DNA of 64,000 nt, taken from Agreia sp. PsM10. GTDB lineage: Bacteria > Actinomycetota > Actinomycetes > Actinomycetales > Microbacteriaceae. The DNA is taken from contig NZ_JARUXC010000007.1 in NCBI RefSeq assembly GCF_030433855.1, positions 1 through 64,000 of the forward strand, in the 5' to 3' direction. Each line of letters opens with the position of its first letter. Within the stretch, counting starts at the first letter, position 1. The position numbers were made by a program, and so were the translations under genes. The notes beneath the pieces were generated by a model, which did not search any database, had not been told where the DNA came from, and worked only from the letters and a program-made list of their open reading frames with translations. Shown one piece after another: positions 4,228 through 15,998 of this stretch.

Positions 4228-5028
4228 ATGAGCGACCGCGAGCACCCCCAGAACTCCAGCGTCCCGCCCCAGGGCGGTTACGACGCGACCAACGATCCCG
4301 AGGTCCGTTCCACCCCGGCACCCGCGTCGGCAACGCCGCCTTCTGCAGAACCGCGCGTATCCGCGACCACCGGCTCGACGCCCGAGGGAACGACGACCAC
4401 GGGCACGACGACCACGGGCGGTCTCGAACCGGGCGCCGCCGTGCCCGCCGCACCTCAGGCATCCCTGCGCCAGGAGGTCCTCGAACGCGAGAAGGAGGAG
4501 TTCGGAGGCGTCAAGATCGGCTCGGCATTCTTCGGATGGCTGACCGCGACAGGCACCGCCGTGATCCTCACCGCCCTGGTCGCCGCGACCGGAGCCGCCA
4601 TCGGACTGGGAATCACCGGCGACGCCGACGAGGCCGCGAACGAGGGTGTCGCCAACGCCGACACCGTGGGGATCGCAGGAGCCATCGCGCTGCTCGTCGT
4701 GATCTTCGTCGCCTATTACTGCGGCGGATACGTGGCCGGCCGCATGGCCCGCTTCAACGGCATGAAGCAGGGCGTCTTCGTCTGGCTGTGGGCGGTCGTC
4801 ATCGCCATCGTCGTCGCCATCATCACCGCGATCGCCGGCAGCCAGTACAACGTGCTCGGCAACCTCAACAGCTTTCCACGGATCCCGATCGACGAGGGCG
4901 ACCTCACCACGGCCAGCGTGATCACCGCCATCGCCGTGGCCGTCATCAGCCTGCTCGGCGCCATTCTCGGCGGCCTCGGCGGAATGCGTTTCCACCGCAA
5001 GGTCGACCGCGCCGGTCTCGGCCGCTAA
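4228..5028 (+). CDS. Four-helix membrane protein with disordered N-terminus
   Basis: A 266-residue protein. Residues 1-85 are a Pro/Thr/Gly-rich disordered tail with repeated TTTTG units. A short charged coil follows (LRQEVLEREKEEFGG), then four hydrophobic segments (about 100-128, 150-172, 186-206, 232-255) separated by short loops. I do not recognise a characterised family; it resembles actinobacterial 'YrzE/TIGR04086-like' membrane proteins in layout only. It shares a direction with the PRC-barrel gene 51 bases downstream and they may be co-transcribed. An upstream copy of the first codons (ATGAGTGACCGCG at 4170, ATGAGCGACCGCG at 4228) makes the start slightly ambiguous. Confidence 0.6.
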   Translation: MSDREHPQNSSVPPQGGYDATNDPEVRSTPAPASATPPSAEPRVSATTGSTPEGTTTTGTTTTGGLEPGAAVPAAPQASLRQEVLEREKEEFGGVKIGSAFFGWLTATGTAVILTALVAATGAAIGLGITGDADEAANEGVANADTVGIAGAIALLVVIFVAYYCGGYVAGRMARFNGMKQGVFVWLWAVVIAIVVAIITAIAGSQYNVLGNLNSFPRIPIDEGDLTTASVITAIAVAVISLLGAILGGLGGMRFHRKVDRAGLGR

Positions 5029-5079
5029 CCCTCCCCGAGGAACACCCGAACACGCATTGAACGAGCCGAGGAGTCACCC

Positions 5080-5406
5080 ATGATCGAGTCACGCGATATC
5101 GGAGGGATCGTCGGCGCGCCGGCCACCGGTCCCGACGGGCAGAAAGTCGGAACCGTCACGCAGGTGCTGGTCGACGCCGAGACCGGGCGGCCCCGGTGGG
5201 CGACCGTGAATCCGGGCCTCTTCTCCGGCTCCGACGCGTTCGTTCCGCTGGATCGAGCGGAGTGGGACAGGGAGCACCTGCGCCTGCCGTACTCCAAGGA
5301 CCAGCTCAAGGACTCGCCACGGTTCTCGATCGGAGAAGCGTTGACCCCGGCCGAACAGGAGCTGCTGCGCCGGCATTACGACCCCGACGCGGGTCCGACC
5401 TCCTGA
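5080..5406 (+). CDS. PRC-barrel domain protein
   Basis: A 108-residue cytoplasmic protein with one PRC-barrel domain: 'vGAPATGPDGQKVGTVTQVLVD...GRPRWATVNPGLF', followed by 'AFVPLDRAEWDREHLRLPYSK' and a tail with EALTPAEQELLRRHY. Stand-alone PRC-barrel proteins of this form are widespread in soil actinobacteria and often linked to stress or envelope genes; their exact role is not known. An ATG with GAGGAGTC upstream supports the start. It lies behind the four-helix membrane protein gene and ahead of a strong terminator, so the two form a likely transcription unit. Confidence 0.75.
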   Translation: MIESRDIGGIVGAPATGPDGQKVGTVTQVLVDAETGRPRWATVNPGLFSGSDAFVPLDRAEWDREHLRLPYSKDQLKDSPRFSIGEALTPAEQELLRRHYDPDAGPTS

Positions 5407-5430
5407 CATCTCGCTGAGGCCGGACCCCGA

Positions 5431-5492
5431 GTCCGTTCCCTGAGCCCGTCGAAGGGCATCCCCTTCGACAAGCTCAGGGAACGGACTTTTTT
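5431..5492 (+). terminator. Rho-independent terminator built from repeat family A
   Basis: An inverted repeat with arms starting GTCCGTTCCCTGAGC (5431) and ending GCTCAGGGAACGGAC (5486) is followed directly by TTTTTT (5487-5492). The arms are two opposed copies of the dispersed family A repeat (core CCTGAGCCTGTCGAAGGG), so here the repeat works as a classical terminator for the PRC-barrel unit. Confidence 0.85.
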
Positions 5493-5518
5493 GCGTGTTT
5501 GCGTTCGGGTCATCGTGA

Positions 5519-5560
5519 CACTAAGCTGATTCCAGCACTTAGAGTCATCGATACCTTAAG
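5519..5560 (+). promoter_or_regulatory. Candidate operator region upstream of the NrtR-like gene
   Basis: CTAAG at 5521-5525 and CTTAG at 5538-5542 form an inverted pair, followed by the palindrome CTTAAG (5555-5560). This AT-richer patch directly precedes the NrtR-like gene. NrtR proteins control their own NAD operons, so it is a candidate binding site. The match is by position and symmetry only. Confidence 0.35.
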
Positions 5561-5582
5561 TCCAGACACGATCGGCACGGCC

Positions 5583-6260
5583 ATGAGCCAGCAGCAGGCG
5601 AGCATCGCGGTATCCACCGTCATCTTCGCCCTGCGCAGCGATCCGACCACCGGCGTCAGCACGGTGTGGATCCCTGTCGTCCGTCGCATCCGCGAGCCCC
5701 ACGAGGGCAGATGGGCACTCCCCGGAGGCCCGCTTCGCATCGACGACGACCTCGAGGCTGCGGCCCGAAACCATCTGGTCGAGACCACGGCCCTCACGCC
5801 GAAGTACCTCGAACAGCTCTACGCCTTCGGCGATGTCGGCCGCTCCCCCGGTCAGCGAGTCGTCTCGATCGTGTACTGGGCCCTGGTCGAGAGCGACGAG
5901 GCGGCCCGCGCCACCGTGGGCGAGAACGTGACCTGGCTCTCGACCGACGAACTGCCCGAGCTCGCCTTCGATCACAACCTGATCGTCGACTACGCCCTCT
6001 GGCGGCTGCGCACCAAGATGGAGTACTCCCGCATCGCGCACGCCTTTCTCGGCGACACGTTCACCCTCGCCCAGTTGCGCGAGGTGCACGAGGCCGTCAG
6101 GCAGAAACCCCTCGACCCCGCGAACTTCCGGCGCATGATCGAGTCGAGCAAGACCGTCGTCCCCACGGGCGATTTCGTCACCGGCGCCCGGCATCGCCCC
6201 GCGCGCCTCTACCGCTACGACGGGTCGATCGACCTCGCCGACCGCGGCCCCCTCCGATAG
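5583..6260 (+). CDS. nrtR: NrtR-type NUDIX transcriptional regulator of NAD synthesis
   Basis: A 225-residue protein with an N-terminal NUDIX domain (residues about 8-140) and a C-terminal winged-helix (about 150-225). The NUDIX box is degenerate (GGPLRIDDDLEAAARNHLVETT), lacking the REUxEE core, as in regulators that bind ADP-ribose without hydrolysing it. 'YAFGDVGRSPGQRVVSIVYWAL' is typical of NrtR/YjhB-like proteins. It lies directly upstream of nadA-nadB-nadC in the same direction, the classic NrtR context, so I infer a repressor of the NAD genes. I chose ATG 5583 over an earlier frame start at 5499 because the family begins there. Confidence 0.85.
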   Translation: MSQQQASIAVSTVIFALRSDPTTGVSTVWIPVVRRIREPHEGRWALPGGPLRIDDDLEAAARNHLVETTALTPKYLEQLYAFGDVGRSPGQRVVSIVYWALVESDEAARATVGENVTWLSTDELPELAFDHNLIVDYALWRLRTKMEYSRIAHAFLGDTFTLAQLREVHEAVRQKPLDPANFRRMIESSKTVVPTGDFVTGARHRPARLYRYDGSIDLADRGPLR

Positions 6261-6270
6261 AGAAACCGCC

Positions 6271-6326
6271 CGTTCCCTGAGCCTGTCGAAGGGAACGGTC
6301 CACCCGCTTCGACAGGCTCAGCGAAC
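6271..6326 (+). repeat. Family A palindromic repeat pair between nrtR and nadA
   Basis: Opposed copies: CGTTCCCTGAGCCTGTCG at 6271 and CGACAGGCTCAGCGAAC ending at 6326. The pair can fold into a hairpin that would sit in the nrtR-nadA transcript. There is no T-run, so read-through into nadA is likely. Confidence 0.8.
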
Positions 6327-6339
6327 AAAGAAGACCACC

Positions 6340-7656
6340 ATGACATCCGTCGACACCACCATCCAGCTGCTCACTCGCGAACAGGCAGAAGGCGCGGCGT
6401 CCGGCAGCACCTGCACGCCCGACCTCGCCTTGGAGCCGTGGACCTTCGACGCGGGCCTGCCGAACTACGGCCCCGGCGCATCCATGACCGACATCATCCC
6501 CACCGGATCGCCGGTGCAGGGGCGCCTGCCCGCCGAGTACACCACCGCGAGCGCCGACGAACTGGATGCGCGCATCCGGGCCGCGAAGGCGACGCTCGGC
6601 GAGCGGGTCGTCGTGCTGGGCCACTTCTACCAGCGCGACGAGGTCGTGCAGTACGCGGACTTCGTGGGCGACTCGTTCCAGCTCGCGAACGCGGCCAAGG
6701 CCAGACCCGACGCCGAGGCCATCGTGTTCTGCGGCGTGCACTTCATGGCCGAGACGGCCGACATCCTGTCGCAGCCGTCGCAGGCGGTCATCCTGCCGAA
6801 CCTCGCCGCCGGGTGCTCGATGGCCGACATGGCCGACATCGATTCGGTCGAGGACGCATGGGCGCAGCTCACCGAGATCTACGGCACGGCGCCGGATGCC
6901 GATGGCCGGGTTCCCGTGATTCCGGTCACGTACATGAACAGCTCGGCCGCGCTCAAGGCATTCTGCGGCCGCAACGGCGGCATCGTCTGCACCTCGTCGA
7001 ACGCGGCCACGGTGTTGGAGTGGGCCTTCGAGCGCGGACAGCGGGTGCTCTTCTTTCCCGACCAGCACCTCGGCCGCAACACGGCGAAGGCGATGGGAAT
7101 CCCGGTGGAGCTCATGCCCATGTGGAACCCGCGCAAGCCGCTCGGCGGCAACTCGGCCGACGAGCTCGTCGACGCGAAGGTCGTGCTCTGGCACGGGTTC
7201 TGCTCGGTGCACAAGCGCTTCACCCCGGCGCAGATCGCCAAGGCCCGCTCCGAGCACCCGGGCGTTCAGGTGATCGTGCACCCCGAGTGCCCGATGGCGG
7301 TCGTCGACGCGGCCGACTCGGCGGGGTCGACCGACTTCATCGTCAAGGCGATCCAGGCCGCGCCCGCCGGCTCGACCTTCGCCATCGGCACCGAGATCAA
7401 CCTCGTGAACCGCCTCGCCGCCGAGTACCCGCAGCACACCATCTTCTGCCTCGACGACGTGATCTGCCCCTGCTCCACGATGTACCGCATCCACCCCGGC
7501 TACCTGGCCTGGGTGCTCGAGGGCCTCGTCGACGGGGTGGTGCTCAACCGCATCCAGGTGGCTGACGACGTGATCGCCGACTCGACGGTCGCCCTCGAGC
7601 GGATGCTCGCGGCCCGGCCCCCCGTGTCGGCCCCCGCCCCGCAGGCCGCGAACTGA
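6340..7656 (+). CDS. nadA: Quinolinate synthase A
   Basis: A 438-residue protein of the long actinobacterial NadA type. It condenses iminoaspartate (from NadB) with dihydroxyacetone phosphate to quinolinate and holds a [4Fe-4S] cluster. Visible motifs are GHFYQRDEVVQYADFVGDS (near 90), FCGVHFMAETA (near 130), a TYMNSSAALKAFCG...GIVCTSSNA block (near 200), FPDQHLGRN and CLDDVICPCSTMYRIHP (near 375), supplying the conserved cysteines. One base separates its stop from nadB, so the genes are co-transcribed. The cysteine desulfurase downstream would help build the Fe-S cluster. Confidence 0.96.
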   Translation: MTSVDTTIQLLTREQAEGAASGSTCTPDLALEPWTFDAGLPNYGPGASMTDIIPTGSPVQGRLPAEYTTASADELDARIRAAKATLGERVVVLGHFYQRDEVVQYADFVGDSFQLANAAKARPDAEAIVFCGVHFMAETADILSQPSQAVILPNLAAGCSMADMADIDSVEDAWAQLTEIYGTAPDADGRVPVIPVTYMNSSAALKAFCGRNGGIVCTSSNAATVLEWAFERGQRVLFFPDQHLGRNTAKAMGIPVELMPMWNPRKPLGGNSADELVDAKVVLWHGFCSVHKRFTPAQIAKARSEHPGVQVIVHPECPMAVVDAADSAGSTDFIVKAIQAAPAGSTFAIGTEINLVNRLAAEYPQHTIFCLDDVICPCSTMYRIHPGYLAWVLEGLVDGVVLNRIQVADDVIADSTVALERMLAARPPVSAPAPQAAN

Positions 7657-7657
7657 C

Positions 7658-9376
7658 ATGGCCCGCATCCTGATCGTGGGCAGCGGCATCGCCGGACTGA
7701 CCACCGCGCTGCATGCCTCGCAGCTGCACGCGCATGACGTCACCGTGGTGACCAAGGGCGCGCTCGCCGAGAGCAACACCCGCTACGCGCAGGGCGGCAT
7801 CGCAGCGGCGACCGCGCTCGACGACAGCGCCATCCTGCACGCAGACGACACCATCCGGGCGGGCGCGGGACTGACCGACGAAACAGCCGCGCGCGTGTTG
7901 GCCGACGAGGGGGCGGCGGCCATCCGGAGCCTGATCGCCTGGGGCGTGCTGTTCGATCACCGACCGGGCAGCTCCGAGCCCGAGCGCGCACTCGAGGCCG
8001 CGCACTCGCGGCCTAGAGTGCTGCACGCGGGCGGCGACGCCACGGGCGCGGCGATCGAGTCCGCACTGGTCGCGGCCGTGCGCGCCAGCGGCGTGACCGT
8101 CCGTGAGCACACGACGCTGACCGACCTCGTACTGGCCGACGCGTCCGGCATCCGCGCCCGTTCGGCGCATCCGCTGCCGGCCGGCCAGACGCCGATGCAC
8201 CCAGGGGGTGCGGATGCCGACGGGTCGAGCCGCGTCGTCGGCATCGAGGTGCTGCGAGCCGACGGAGGGCGCGAAGTGCTGCTCGCCGACGCGGTCGTGC
8301 TCGCCACGGGCGGGGCCGGGCAGCTCTACTCGCACACCACGAATCCTGCGATCGCGACGGGTGACGGCCTTGCCGCAGCGCTGAGGGCGGGAGTCGCCAC
8401 CGCAGACCTGGAGTTCTACCAGTTCCACCCCACGACGCTCGCGGCACCCGGAAACTTCCTCGTCTCCGAGGCCGTGAGGGGCGAGGGCGCCGTGCTGCGC
8501 AACGAGCGCGGCGAACGTTTCATGGTCGGAGTGCGCTCCGACGCCGAACTTGCGCCGCGCGATGTCGTCGCGCGGGCGATCGCCGCCGAGATGGCGAAGC
8601 AGAACGGCGTGCCCGTGAATCTGGATGCCCGGGGTATCGACCGCGAGACCGTCGCGACCCGCTTCCCCACGATCATGGCGGCGTGTGCGGCGGCGGGGTT
8701 CGACCTGGCCGACGGTCTTGTTCCCGTGGTGCCGGCAGCGCACTACTACATGGGCGGCATCGCGACCGATCTCGACGGGCGGACCTCGCACGCGGGGCTC
8801 TTCGCTGTGGGAGAGGCCGCCTGCACAGGAGTTCACGGGGCCAACCGCCTCGCCTCGAACAGCCTGCTCGAGGGCGCCGTCTTCGGCCGGCGCGTGGCGG
8901 CGGCGCTGTCGGCCGACCCGTTCCCTGAGCCTGTCGAAGGGATGGACGAGGACTCCAGAACTCCGTTCCCTGAGCCTGTCGAAGGGATGGACGAGGACTC
9001 CAGAACTCCGTCCCCTGAGCTTGTCGAAGGGCTGGACGACCCCCTTCGACAGGCTCAGGGAACGGGTCTCGACCGTTCCGAATTGCAAGCGCTTATGTGG
9101 CACTACGCCGGGCTGACGCGCTCGGGTGTCGGCCTCGCCACGGCCGCAGCCCGCCTGCGGGTCTGGGCCGAGGCATCCGGCGCCCGTGACGACAGCCGAC
9201 CGGCCGACCGCGAGCGCATCGAGACCGACAACCTGCTCACCGTGGCCCGCGCCCTCGTCGCCGCAGCCCAGGCCCGGCGCGAATCGCGGGGCGCGCACTC
9301 TCGAACCGACCATCCGCAGACCGACCCCCTCGCCACGCGCGAGGCGGCCCGCACGCTCCAGACACAGGGACTCTGA
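7658..9376 (+). CDS. nadB: L-aspartate oxidase with repeat-derived insertions
   Basis: A 572-residue FAD enzyme that oxidises L-aspartate to iminoaspartate. It has GSGIAGL at residues 8-14, a NTRYAQGGIAA motif near 45, the active-site region EFYQFHPTTL near 255, GIATDLDGRTSHAGLFAVGE near 370 and GANRLASNSLLEG near 395, then a C-terminal helical domain. It is longer than the usual ~540 residues. Two segments match dispersed DNA repeats. Residues about 164-188 derive from family C. Residues about 421-470 consist of three in-frame 45-base copies of family A plus one inverted copy (protein unit FPEPVEGMDEDSRTP). Both fall in a surface loop or inter-domain linker, and the frame remains open. Confidence 0.95.
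   Translation: MARILIVGSGIAGLTTALHASQLHAHDVTVVTKGALAESNTRYAQGGIAAATALDDSAILHADDTIRAGAGLTDETAARVLADEGAAAIRSLIAWGVLFDHRPGSSEPERALEAAHSRPRVLHAGGDATGAAIESALVAAVRASGVTVREHTTLTDLVLADASGIRARSAHPLPAGQTPMHPGGADADGSSRVVGIEVLRADGGREVLLADAVVLATGGAGQLYSHTTNPAIATGDGLAAALRAGVATADLEFYQFHPTTLAAPGNFLVSEAVRGEGAVLRNERGERFMVGVRSDAELAPRDVVARAIAAEMAKQNGVPVNLDARGIDRETVATRFPTIMAACAAAGFDLADGLVPVVPAAHYYMGGIATDLDGRTSHAGLFAVGEAACTGVHGANRLASNSLLEGAVFGRRVAAALSADPFPEPVEGMDEDSRTPFPEPVEGMDEDSRTPSPELVEGLDDPLRQAQGTGLDRSELQALMWHYAGLTRSGVGLATAAARLRVWAEASGARDDSRPADRERIETDNLLTVARALVAAAQARRESRGAHSRTDHPQTDPLATREAARTLQTQGL
8149..8219 (+). repeat. Family C repeat element inside nadB
   Basis: The stretch CATCCGCGCCCGTTCGGCGC... to ...GTGCGGATGCC matches, nearly base for base and in reverse orientation, the intergenic element at 45885-45951, and also the elements at 48596 and 12298. 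It encodes a Pro/Gly/His-rich loop in NadB between two strands of the FAD domain. Confidence 0.85.
8919..9066 (+). repeat. In-frame tandem family A repeats inside nadB
   Basis: TTCCCTGAGCCTGTCGAAGG begins at 8921 and 8966, and a variant (TCCCCTGAGCTTGTCGAAGG) at 9011: three copies with a 45-base (15-codon) period. An inverted copy ends near 9064. The period preserves the reading frame. The encoded acidic, proline-containing segment joins the FAD domain to the helical domain. Confidence 0.9.
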
Positions 9377-9378
9377 CC

Positions 9379-10236
9379 ATGCTTCTCACTCCGCAGGCGA
9401 TCGACCGGGTCGTCACCGCCGCCCTCGCCGAAGACGCCCCCTGGGGCGACGCGACCTCCGACGCGTTCCTGCCCGAGGGAGCGACCGCCACGGCCCGGCT
9501 GGTGGCCAGGGAGCCCGGCATCCTCTCGGGCGGCGAGGTCTTCGCGCGCGCCATGTCGGCTGCGCACCCCGCCACCGTGACGACGCTCGAGTTGAACGAC
9601 GGAGACCTCTTCGTTCCGGGAGAAGTGCTCGCCACGGTCACGGGTCCCGCTGCCGGGGTGCTGCTCGGCGAGCGGGTCGCACTCAACCTCGTGCAGCGCA
9701 TGAGCGGCATCGCCACCGCCACCGCGAGCTACGTGGCCGCGGTCGAGGGAACCCGGGCGCGGATCGTCGACACCCGCAAGACGACCCCGGGCCTCCGCGC
9801 CCTCGAACGGCACGCCGTGCGCAGCGGCGGGGGCGGCAACCACCGCTTCTCGCTGAGCGACGCCGTGCTCGCAAAGGACAATCACCTCGCGGTGCTCACC
9901 GCATCCGGAATCTCGCTGACCGACGCGATCATGCGCGCCCGGGCGCGCATCTCGCACACCACCCACCTCGAGGTCGAGGTCGACCGGCTCGACCAGATCG
10001 AACCCGTGCTCGCGGGCGGCGTCGACACGATCATGCTCGACAACTTCTCGCTCGACGAGCTGCGTCGGGGTGTCGCGATCGTAGCGGGTCGCGCGCTGAT
10101 CGAGGCCAGTGGCGGGGTGAACCTCGACACCGTACGCGCCATCGCCGAGACCGGAGTCGACATCATCTCGGTCGGCGCCCTCACCCACAGCGCCCGAGCC
10201 CTCGACCTGGGCCTCGATCTTCAGGTCGAGGCATGA
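9379..10236 (+). CDS. nadC: Nicotinate-nucleotide pyrophosphorylase (quinolinate phosphoribosyltransferase)
   Basis: A 285-residue type II phosphoribosyltransferase that converts quinolinate and PRPP to nicotinate mononucleotide, CO2 and pyrophosphate. Diagnostic sequence is DTRKTTPGLRALERHAVRSG (near 135), followed by GGNHRFSLSDAVLAKDNHL, the VEVDRLDQIEPVLAGGVDTIMLDNF barrel strands and ISVGALTHSARALDLGLDL at the C-terminus. Length is normal. It starts two bases after nadB ends, so it is part of the nad operon. Confidence 0.96.
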   Translation: MLLTPQAIDRVVTAALAEDAPWGDATSDAFLPEGATATARLVAREPGILSGGEVFARAMSAAHPATVTTLELNDGDLFVPGEVLATVTGPAAGVLLGERVALNLVQRMSGIATATASYVAAVEGTRARIVDTRKTTPGLRALERHAVRSGGGGNHRFSLSDAVLAKDNHLAVLTASGISLTDAIMRARARISHTTHLEVEVDRLDQIEPVLAGGVDTIMLDNFSLDELRRGVAIVAGRALIEASGGVNLDTVRAIAETGVDIISVGALTHSARALDLGLDLQVEA

Positions 10237-10251
10237 GCCTCCCCCGCGCCT

Positions 10252-10309
10252 GTTGCCCGGCGCGACGGATGCGCCCGGTCGCCCGGCAACATCCGTCGCC
10301 CCGGGCAAC
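10252..10309 (+). repeat. Palindrome between nadC and the cysteine desulfurase gene
   Basis: The 20-base arm at 10252-10271 (GTTGCCCGG...ACGGATG) pairs at 19 of 20 positions with the arm at 10290-10309. A further CGCCCGGCAAC lies in the loop, so alternative pairings are possible. It may tune read-through or mRNA stability between nadC and the next gene. Confidence 0.75.
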
Positions 10310-10327
10310 ACTCGTCAGGTCTCGCCC

Positions 10328-11467
10328 GTGATCTACCTCGACAACGCGGCCACCACGCCCGTGCGCCGCGAGGTTCTCGAGGCGATATGGCCGTTCCTCA
10401 CCGGCGACTTCGGCAATCCCTCGAGCCACCATGCCCTGGGCGACGCGGCGGCCCGCTCCCTGGCCTCGGCGCGCGCGCAGCTCGCCGAGTGGTTCGGCAC
10501 CCGGCCCGCCGAGGTCACGTTCACGTCGGGCGGCACCGAGGCCATCAACCTCGCCATCAAGGGCATCGCGCTCGGCCAGCCTCGAGGCCGGCACATCGTG
10601 ACGACCCCCATCGAGCACGAGGCCACGCTCGAGTCGATCGACTTCCTGCGCCGGGTGCACGGCTTCGACGTGTCGACAGTGCCGGTGGATGCCGTGGGCC
10701 GGGTCGATCTCGACGCCCTCGCCGGGCTGGTGCGCAGCGACACGACGCTGGTCAGCGTGATGGCGGCCAACAACGAGATCGGCACCGTTCAGGACACGGC
10801 GGCGATCGGCGCCCTCGTGCACTCCGCCGGATCGGTGCTGCACGTCGACGCCGTGCAGGCCGCCGGCTGGCTCGACACGAGCCTGGATGCGCTCGGTGCC
10901 GACGCCGTGTCGATCTCGGGTCACAAGCTGGGCGCGCCGAAAGGCGTCGGAGCGCTGGCCGCCCACTCTCGCCTCGTGATCGAGCCCCTGCTCCACGGCG
11001 GCGGCCAGGAACGCGGGCGGCGCTCGGGCACCGAGAACGTCGCCGCGGCCGTGGGTCTCGCCGTCGCGGCGCGACTGTCGTCGGCGGGCCGCGCCGAGGC
11101 ATCCGGTCGGGTCGCCGCATTGCGCGACGACCTGATCGCACGAATCGAGGAGGCCGTGCCGTTCGCACGGCTCACGGGGTCGCGCGAGCACCGGCTGCCG
11201 TCGATCGCGTCGTTCCTGTTCCCCGGAACAAGCGGCGAGGGCGTGCTGCTCGGACTCGAGGAGCGCGGTGTCGTGTCGTCGAGCGGCTCGGCGTGCGCCG
11301 CCGGCAGCGACGAGCCGTCCCCGGTTCTGCTCGCGGTGGGCATCGACCCGGTGGATGCGCAGACCGCCGTTCGCTTCAGCCTCTCGACGGCGACGACCGC
11401 CGCCGACGTGGAGGCCGCCGCGATCGCTGCCGCGGAGGCCGTGCGCGCGCTGACGCAGCTGCGCTGA
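10328..11467 (+). CDS. NifS/IscS-type cysteine desulfurase of the NAD operon
   Basis: A 379-residue class V aminotransferase-fold PLP enzyme that takes sulfur from cysteine as a persulfide for Fe-S cluster assembly. It begins IYLDNAATTPVRREV, has TSGGTEAINLAIKG (near 65), HVDAVQAAGW, the PLP-lysine region SGHKLGAPKGVGAL (near 195) and the catalytic-cysteine loop SSGSACAAGSDEPS (near 320). Its place behind nadABC matches the NifS/NadS proteins that load the NadA cluster in other bacteria. I prefer the GTG at 10328; an upstream TTG at 10253 would start inside the palindrome. Confidence 0.92.
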   Translation: MIYLDNAATTPVRREVLEAIWPFLTGDFGNPSSHHALGDAAARSLASARAQLAEWFGTRPAEVTFTSGGTEAINLAIKGIALGQPRGRHIVTTPIEHEATLESIDFLRRVHGFDVSTVPVDAVGRVDLDALAGLVRSDTTLVSVMAANNEIGTVQDTAAIGALVHSAGSVLHVDAVQAAGWLDTSLDALGADAVSISGHKLGAPKGVGALAAHSRLVIEPLLHGGGQERGRRSGTENVAAAVGLAVAARLSSAGRAEASGRVAALRDDLIARIEEAVPFARLTGSREHRLPSIASFLFPGTSGEGVLLGLEERGVVSSSGSACAAGSDEPSPVLLAVGIDPVDAQTAVRFSLSTATTAADVEAAAIAAAEAVRALTQLR

Positions 11468-11470
11468 CGC

Positions 11471-11546
11471 CGTTCCCTGACCCCGTTCCCTGAGCCTGTC
11501 GAAGGGAAGCCGCCGAAGCGAACCCCTTCGACGAGCTCAGGGAACG
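11471..11546 (+). repeat. Family A repeat pair after the NAD operon
   Basis: GTTCCCTGAGCCTGTCGAAGG near 11482 opposes CCTTCGACGAGCTCAGGGAAC near 11525. It is a long hairpin at the end of the nad operon that may act as a terminator, though no T-run follows. Confidence 0.8.
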
Positions 11547-11571
11547 ACCCTTCCGGCGTATCGTGGCCCGC

Positions 11572-12267
11572 ATGCACATTGTTCTCGTTCCCGGATTCTG
11601 GCTCGGCGCGTGGTCGTGGGCACCCGTGACCGCAGCCGTCGAAGCGGCCGATCACACGCCGCACCCGCTCAGCCTCCCCGGCGTGGAATCGCTCGAAGCT
11701 GACCGGAGGGGCATCACCCTCGACGACCACATCCGCTTCGTCGAGGAGTACATCGCCGACCTCGACGGCGACATCGTTCTGGTGGGTCACAGCGGAGGCG
11801 GCTCGGTGATCCACGCCGTGGTCGATCGACACCCCGACCGCATCCGGCACGCCGTCTACGTCGACAGCGGACCGACGCCCGACGGCATGGAGATCAACGC
11901 CAACATCCCCGAGGTCGACGGCGAACTCCCCCTGCCCGCCTGGGACTTCTTCGACGACCTCGAGCTCACCGGACTCGACGAGGCCGACCTCGAGAACTTC
12001 CGCGCCCGCGCCGTTCCCACGCCGACCCGGGTGGCCCGCGACCCGCAGGTGCTGACGAACGAGGCCCGCTACGAGGTTCCCGTGACCGTGATCACGTGCA
12101 CGTACAGTGCCGAGGAGATGCGCCGAGGCATGGGCGCGGGAGTGCCCTACTTCGCTGAGCTGCCGCGCATCCACGAGGTGGGAATCGTGGAGCTGCCCAC
12201 CGGCCACTGGCCCCAGTTCTCGCGCCCTCGCGACCTCGCCAGCGTGATCGTCGCCGCCATCCGCTAG
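11572..12267 (+). CDS. Alpha/beta hydrolase
   Basis: A 231-residue cytoplasmic alpha/beta hydrolase of the small esterase-like type. The oxyanion region is VLVPGFWLGAW, the nucleophile elbow is VGHSGGGSVIH (Ser near residue 75), and the C-terminal histidine lies in LPTGHWPQFSRP. The substrate is unknown. TATCGT ends seven bases before the ATG at 11572, fitting a leaderless start; a GTG three codons earlier (11563) falls within that promoter box and is less likely. Confidence 0.75.
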   Translation: MHIVLVPGFWLGAWSWAPVTAAVEAADHTPHPLSLPGVESLEADRRGITLDDHIRFVEEYIADLDGDIVLVGHSGGGSVIHAVVDRHPDRIRHAVYVDSGPTPDGMEINANIPEVDGELPLPAWDFFDDLELTGLDEADLENFRARAVPTPTRVARDPQVLTNEARYEVPVTVITCTYSAEEMRRGMGAGVPYFAELPRIHEVGIVELPTGHWPQFSRPRDLASVIVAAIR

Positions 12268-15968: not shown

Positions 15969-15998
15969 CCCGGCCCTTCGACAGGCTCGGGGAACGGC
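15969..15998 (+). repeat. Single family A repeat copy
   Basis: CCCTTCGACAGGCTCGGGGAACGG lies between the convergent stops at 15963 and 16006, with one base changed from the family core. Confidence 0.7.

Follow-up and report, generated by a model that had tools for sequence, protein, structure and literature searches.

A repeat array lies in frame within nadB

We analysed a 64,000-nucleotide stretch of DNA (the window) from Agreia sp. PsM10, whose 4.01 Mb genome (the source genome) has Agreia, Microbacteriaceae, as its closest named relatives. nadA (6340-7656), nadB and nadC (9379-10236) lie in that order and are followed by a cysteine desulfurase gene. The nadB product exceeds the cut-off of TIGR00551 (NCBIfam nadB), and Pfam places FAD_binding_2 at residues 4-403 and Succ_DH_flav_C at residues 473-556. 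H257, R301, H362 and R397, which we take to correspond to the active-site residues of the E. coli enzyme, are among the invariant columns in an alignment of 49 NadB proteins. Judged by its sequence, the NadB that carries the repeat insert is probably an active enzyme. The one other full-length NadB match in the source genome (37% identity, 374.6 bits) falls below the nadB cut-off and, from this score, looks like succinate dehydrogenase subunit A.

The repeat array spans 8918-9066, and its three direct repeats (units 1 and 2 of Table 1 and 9008-9052) follow one another at spacings of 45 and 45 bases. The initial annotation had counted three 45-base copies. Two of these are full units with a period of exactly 45, but the third is a partial copy: it agrees with units 1 and 2 at 32/45 positions (29/33 at its start) before passing into the inverted arm. 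The inverted copy described earlier is also present, with 9042-9068 complementary to 8915-8941 over 27 nt (100%). The reading frame is uninterrupted across the array, which encodes PFPEPVEGMDEDSRT twice and then PSPELVEGLDDPLRQAQGT. The resulting insert makes up residues 421-470 and lies, as had been proposed, between the FAD domain (ending at 403) and the helical C-terminal domain (starting at 473).

In the solved NadB structure 1chu, presumably that of the E. coli protein, a linker of unrelated sequence occupies the equivalent place, and the interdomain linker is hypervariable across the NadB family. Rather than creating a linker, the repeat has therefore lengthened an existing one or taken its place. 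Of the 21 spacer bases, 19 are contained in a 22-nt pattern whose two sites in the genome at ≤3 mismatches both lie in nadB; since the spacer pattern is confined to this gene, we infer that the array arose by local growth and not by insertion of a complete array from a dispersed copy of the source genome. The CTT variant of the third copy is common to A. bicolorata and Leaf210, so this copy is probably the older arm. Elsewhere in the window, at 368-489, about 13 tandem 9-bp units read PTDPTDPTD in one forward frame, which looks like a proline-threonine-aspartate linker.

Table 1 Features at the nadB locus and genes of the source genome with repeat copies in frame.
Feature	Position	Strand	Evidence or remark
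Intergenic inverted pair, then TTTTTT	5433-5484		-44.6 kcal/mol, z -9.8
Inverted pair directly upstream of nadA	6270-6328		Core matches, folding
nadB, L-aspartate oxidase, 572 aa, frame intact	7658-9376	+	TIGR00551 474.7 bits, above cut-off
45-bp unit 1	8918-8962	+	24-nt repeat + 21-nt spacer; aa PFPEPVEGMDEDSRT
45-bp unit 2	8963-9007	+	Same as unit 1, 45/45
Third, diverged repeat copy, CTT variant	9008-9031	+	Probably left arm of older inverted pair
Inverted repeat copy	9042-9065	-	Pairs with 9008-9031 (hairpin -46.5 kcal/mol) or unit 1 (27 nt, 100%)
Inverted pair past the cysteine desulfurase gene that follows nadC	11483-11547		Core matches, folding
nadB			Repeat between FAD_binding_2 and Succ_DH_flav_C
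AspC-like (aspartate-aminotransferase-like) enzyme			Repeat in source only
MshD mycothiol synthase			Repeat inside family match
Helicase, which we take to be HrpA-like			Repeat between DEAD and Helicase_C
Phosphoglucomutase			Repeat within domain I
Acetyltransferase-permease fusion			Repeat between domains
Amino_oxidase-family flavoprotein, presumably protoporphyrinogen-oxidase-like			Recognised domain around or on both sides of repeat
RecQ			Repeat upstream of recognised domain; later start possible
Class-III aminotransferase			Repeat upstream of recognised domain; later start possible

Family A is a dispersed REP-like palindrome

The conserved unit of the repeat, which we call family A, is 24 nt long (CCGTTCCCTGAGCYTGTCGAAGGG) in an alignment of 58 copies taken from the window and 30 sampled loci and selected by a 13-nt core. 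The core (TCGACAAGCTCAG), whose letters had no match in a literature search, was found 17 times in the window at ≤3 mismatches, compared to a shuffle mean of 0.02. At ≤1 mismatch, we counted 241 matches in the source genome, 441 in Leaf283, 102 in A. bicolorata, 60 in VKM Ac-1783, 44 in A. pratensis, 42 in Leaf210, 5 in the Agreia genome G006 and 0 in the Agreia genome G005, and a reversed-pattern control gave 0 in all eight. These counts support the origin of the nadB segment from a dispersed repeat, as originally suggested. Across 60 genomes, source included, the core was present in 10, comprising 7/8 Agreia and three other genera (118, 6 and 2).

We assessed the setting of the repeat in 79 clusters drawn from the window, these 30 loci and another 40 stretches of the source genome, a sample that leans to exact copies and leaves out clusters <160 bases from a stretch end. 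Sixteen clusters were +- pairs, three were -+ pairs and 50 were single copies, by a search pattern that misses degenerate partners. By a codon score, itself imperfect in that it missed the open-frame nadB linker of A. pratensis, 69/79 clusters were not read through, and family A is therefore mostly extragenic.

In the available text of PMC3116915, REP and REPIN elements have much the same properties: family A, too, is a short imperfect palindrome that is present in hundreds of copies and forms inverted pairs and some tandem arrays. Its unit of 24 nt lies within the 20-40 nt of a REP, its location is mostly extragenic like that of REPs, and its inverted pairs form hairpins like those of REPINs. 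Tandem REP arrays occur in Pseudomonas (Bertels and Rainey 2011, PMC3116915, available text). REPINs are tied there to RAYT (Y1) transposases, whereas a search for Y1_Tnp (PF01797, E <= 0.001) found none in 8/8 Agreia genomes, the E. coli control being positive; the domain was present in 1/30 genomes searched, source included. Seven of the eight Agreia genomes carry the dispersed palindromes with no Y1_Tnp match.

A lone 24-nt unit folds weakly (-3.7 kcal/mol, z 0.4) and an inverted pair folds strongly, the four inverted pairs of the window reaching -36.3 to -46.5 kcal/mol. The terminator annotated at 5431 is plausible, given the intergenic inverted pair and the run of T that follows it; a consensus terminator scan of 5000-12000 found none, by rules that may not suit a stem as long as this one. 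A known RNA family was considered for the repeat and rejected: Rfam, searched over 5000-12000 at E up to 1, gave nothing at nadB and three miRNA matches at intergenic hairpins, all below their gathering scores. A special aptitude for coding was likewise rejected, as the unit is open in 5/6 frames and random k-mers of the window average 5.4.

Individual clusters differ between genomes. At the intergenic cluster that follows the cysteine desulfurase gene (copies at 11488-11543), family A is present in the source and Leaf283 and absent from Leaf210, A. bicolorata and VKM Ac-1783, with A. pratensis not comparable. At a cluster at 15975, it is missing from Leaf210, A. bicolorata, VKM Ac-1783 and A. 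pratensis. We considered and rejected a plasmid or phage as carrier of the repeat. A search for plasmid carriers returned one weak match, on a Comamonas plasmid, with no listed gene beneath it. One viral contig contains the exact 24-nt unit (350-373). We also observed seven tandem cores at 24-base spacing at the end of a source contig (C31, 6-168), an arrangement that may break assembly, and inverted pairs tandemly repeated at 61-base spacing at one sampled source-genome locus (1900-2060).

The nadB linker differs between Agreia species

Eight Agreia genomes, one per species, were compared, and the linker was readable in seven; in G005 the best nadB match is only partial, on a contig of 3,650 bases, and its linker is unreadable. 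The number of 15-residue units, which had been expected to vary among relatives, indeed differs between species: the source has two full 45-bp units, Leaf283 has one, and A. bicolorata and Leaf210 have none, with the inverted pair present in all four. In VKM Ac-1783, A. pratensis and G006, the linker contains another repeat, family B (GGTCTCGATACGGCCGCGGGCGGCCTACTCGACCAGCG or a degraded form). At ≤3 mismatches, family B has 51 copies in VKM Ac-1783, 40 in A. pratensis and three in G006, including one in nadB, and is thus dispersed in the first two genomes. The VKM Ac-1783 linker holds two B copies flanking three 33-bp units that are 82% alike, that of A. pratensis holds two B copies and no tandem array, and that of G006 holds 18-bp tandem units.

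In a tree of five gene segments, Leaf210, which has family A, joins the family-B genomes VKM Ac-1783 and A. pratensis with a support of 100, or 91 when nadB is excluded. The N-terminal part of nadB places the same three together at 89 with uncertain internal order (54), the C-terminal part alone is uninformative (support 18-83), and the placement of G006 is unsure. Because a family-A genome groups with the family-B pair, the repeat in the nadB linker has been replaced, or gained separately, at least once. Among 19 repeat clusters in syntenic-region stretches of five other Agreia, four were read through, all of them the nadB linker.

Repeats in NadB linkers beyond Agreia

We fetched 80 named NadB loci, mostly from Microbacteriaceae and Aeromicrobium with very distant genera barely sampled, and parsed 77 linkers; the three others showed no repeat by eye. 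The strict family-A core was found in 3/77 linkers, all from Agreia, so within this sample the segment is not one that NadB proteins of other genera commonly carry, which would have spoken for an ancestral origin. Strict hits numbered 5 in 9,555 bp of linkers, 0 in 115,930 bp of the rest of nadB and 11 in 445,174 bp of flanks, and a looser pattern gave 7, 2 and 18, respectively. A looser family-B pattern flagged 11 non-Agreia linkers, together with 12 hits in the rest of nadB and 55 in flanks, and we did not count these linkers as family B.

A third repeat (family C; GGTCTCGACAGGCTCGACC or its variant GGTTTCGACAAGCTCAACC) was found at ≤3 mismatches in 11/77 linkers, five of them with 0-1 mismatch. 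All were from Cryobacterium, a genus named in the titles of 27 of the loci; given their shared ancestry, the 11 linkers are not 11 independent events. Its positions numbered 16 in 10,479 bp of linker, compared to 3 in the remaining 111,608 bp. The linker of C. cryoconiti carries four copies at 30-bp spacing (293 in the genome) and that of C. sinapicolor two (93 in the genome). Tandem units of 30 bp are present in two Cryobacterium linkers. Counts were low in four other Cryobacterium genomes searched (28, 14, 9 and 6), and dispersal is therefore clear only for C. cryoconiti and C. sinapicolor. In total, 61/77 linkers have none of the three repeats, or 55/77 when the looser family-B pattern is included. 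The NadB of Frondihabitans sp. Leaf304 has a DRTDRTDRT run that lies elsewhere, between the downstream end of the linker and ETANLL.

Other coding copies and their spacing

Ten of the 79 sampled clusters were read through in a coding frame by the codon score, and seven of the ten have recognised domain sequence around or on both sides of the repeat (Table 1). The RecQ and class-III aminotransferase copies are likely coding, and the tenth cluster, at a glycosyltransferase gene, probably precedes the true start. At the site of the AspC-like insertion, 6/6 close Agreia orthologues read LTYDGV[KR]A, and G005 has no close orthologue. Variants of the MshD repeat are present in the source, Leaf283, A. 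bicolorata and VKM Ac-1783, degraded in A. pratensis and Leaf210, and absent from G006 and G005. The coding repeats use different frames, giving PEPVEG, STGSG, LRQAQG and SLSKG.

Direct spacings within coding arrays were 45, 45 and 30, all multiples of three (3/3). Elsewhere they were 25, 29, 29, 34, 34, 44, 58, 59, 61, 61 and 122 (0/11), some of these sharing one array; the C31 array, with six spacings of 24, also a multiple of three, lay outside this sample. Purifying selection on the frame would be expected to give such spacing in coding arrays; the comparison is partly circular because the coding label required an open frame.

Discussion

Taken together, these data make it very probable that a REP-like element was tolerated in a linker or loop where it stood in frame and was then tandemly duplicated in nadB. 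Family A would have entered the already variable NadB linker as an inverted pair, and the insert would have been tolerated as the frame stayed open. The lineage of the source and Leaf283 would then have gained one more copy together with a local spacer of 21 nt, and in the source the 45-bp unit would have doubled. The most likely mechanisms of the doubling are slippage and unequal recombination of direct copies, with frame-breaking changes being lost and the surviving ones presumably neutral. Slippage, which had been put forward for changes in copy number, is a fair inference, and unequal recombination fits equally well. The 45-bp duplication looks younger than the split of the source and Leaf283, in that the two units are identical and nadB before the linker is 93.9% identical between these genomes, although 45 bp date an event weakly and gene conversion would explain the identity equally well. 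The earlier suggestion that the repeat is tolerated as a protein linker agrees with the open frame, the position between domains and the presence of other repeats in the linkers of relatives.

The array might instead act as RNA, a hairpin tuning nadB and nadC expression with the peptide as a by-product. The nadB inverted pair indeed folds at -46.5 kcal/mol (z -8.6), and linkers fold better than their shuffles in all four family-A species and in 2/3 family-B Agreia (z -3.2 to -8.9), while 19 control linkers have a mean z of -0.1; of four repeat linkers from Cryobacterium, two show a similar tendency (z -2.3 and -3.6). Such hairpins are, however, an automatic consequence of inverted pairs. The family-B linker of G006 (z -0.6) and the two remaining repeat linkers from Cryobacterium (z 0.3 and -1.1) lack such a fold, so the hairpin is not a common feature and a common function of this kind for the linker repeats is unsupported. 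We regard a role as RNA as very improbable. We also give little credence to selection for the repeated peptide, by which linker length or sequence would tune NadB and copy number would be an adaptive or variable trait. That different repeats, with units of 45, 33, 18 and 30 bp, have expanded in one and the same linker could be read in this way, but all of this evidence is compatible with simple tolerance. Moreover, linker sequences are wholly different between lineages, most of the parsed linkers are free of all three repeats, and the repeat peptides occur at unrelated positions in other genes.

The linker at this place is old and hypervariable, which is the one point in favour of reading the segment as an ordinary low-complexity linker, ancestral or alike by chance. 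Against this stand its identity over 24 nt to a unit dispersed in hundreds of copies, the empty reversed-pattern control, and the absence of the strict core from 74/77 linkers and from the rest of nadB. The core counts in shuffles, control and linker survey lead us to reject this reading, to which we assign next to no probability. A more far-reaching reading, in which the NadB linker repeatedly traps palindromic repeats across Microbacteriaceae, so that the unrelated families A and B in Agreia and C in Cryobacterium land there, replace one another and grow in tandem in frame, making a fast-changing coding minisatellite that varies in length within species and may alter NadB, seems to us rather unlikely.

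In-frame coding minisatellites (VNTRs) are tandem units of codon-multiple length whose number differs between relatives. The nadB array resembles them in that its 45-bp unit is a codon multiple and its count differs between relatives; it departs from them in being seeded by a dispersed palindrome, and the variation known here is between species. Palindromic elements in Rickettsia were reportedly studied by Ogata in 2000 and 2002. In the available text of PMC10969869 and PMC2229807, these elements are dispersed palindromes found in frame in conserved enzymes, and a guanylate kinase with such an insert is active with a changed substrate affinity. Family A is likewise found in frame in conserved proteins (nadB, AspC-like, MshD, phosphoglucomutase, helicase and others). 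It differs in size, since the Rickettsia elements measure about 105-150 bp (PMC10969869, PMC2229807, available text) and family A 24 nt with tandem growth, and it uses several frames, unlike a long element with a conserved frame of its own.

The closest precedent is the work of Di Nocera et al. 2013 (PMC3733652), who, in the available text, describe GTAG/CGTC REPs in frame inside known proteins as dimers and clusters. The intragenic clusters encode 43 to 82 aa, the authors propose that linkers or loops tolerate such REPs, and recB of two Xanthomonas has different REPs at about one site (PMC3733652, available text). The same text reports CGTC REPs without a dedicated transposase, as in Agreia, and variation of the CGTC tag to TGTC or CCTC. 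Family A does not carry the GTAG/CGTC tag: its unit begins with CCGTT, with CGTT at positions -7 to -4. The word 'Actinobacteria' is absent from the main text of PMC3733652, and its available text does not describe in-frame tandem growth of several families in one linker with copy steps between sister species. A literature search on Agreia, the NadB linker and actinobacterial intragenic repeats gave nothing relevant beyond this paper among the matches listed, and broader searches added nothing to the papers cited here among their listed matches.

In conclusion, the NadB linker offers a multi-species series in which a dispersed repeat becomes protein within a core metabolic enzyme, and pair-only, expanded and otherwise-occupied states coexist. 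Coding palindromes, known, as far as the available text of the cited papers goes, from Rickettsia and mainly proteobacterial genomes, are hereby extended to a genus of Actinobacteria in which no RAYT is evident. Repeats that survive in frame may flag linkers and loops that tolerate insertions.
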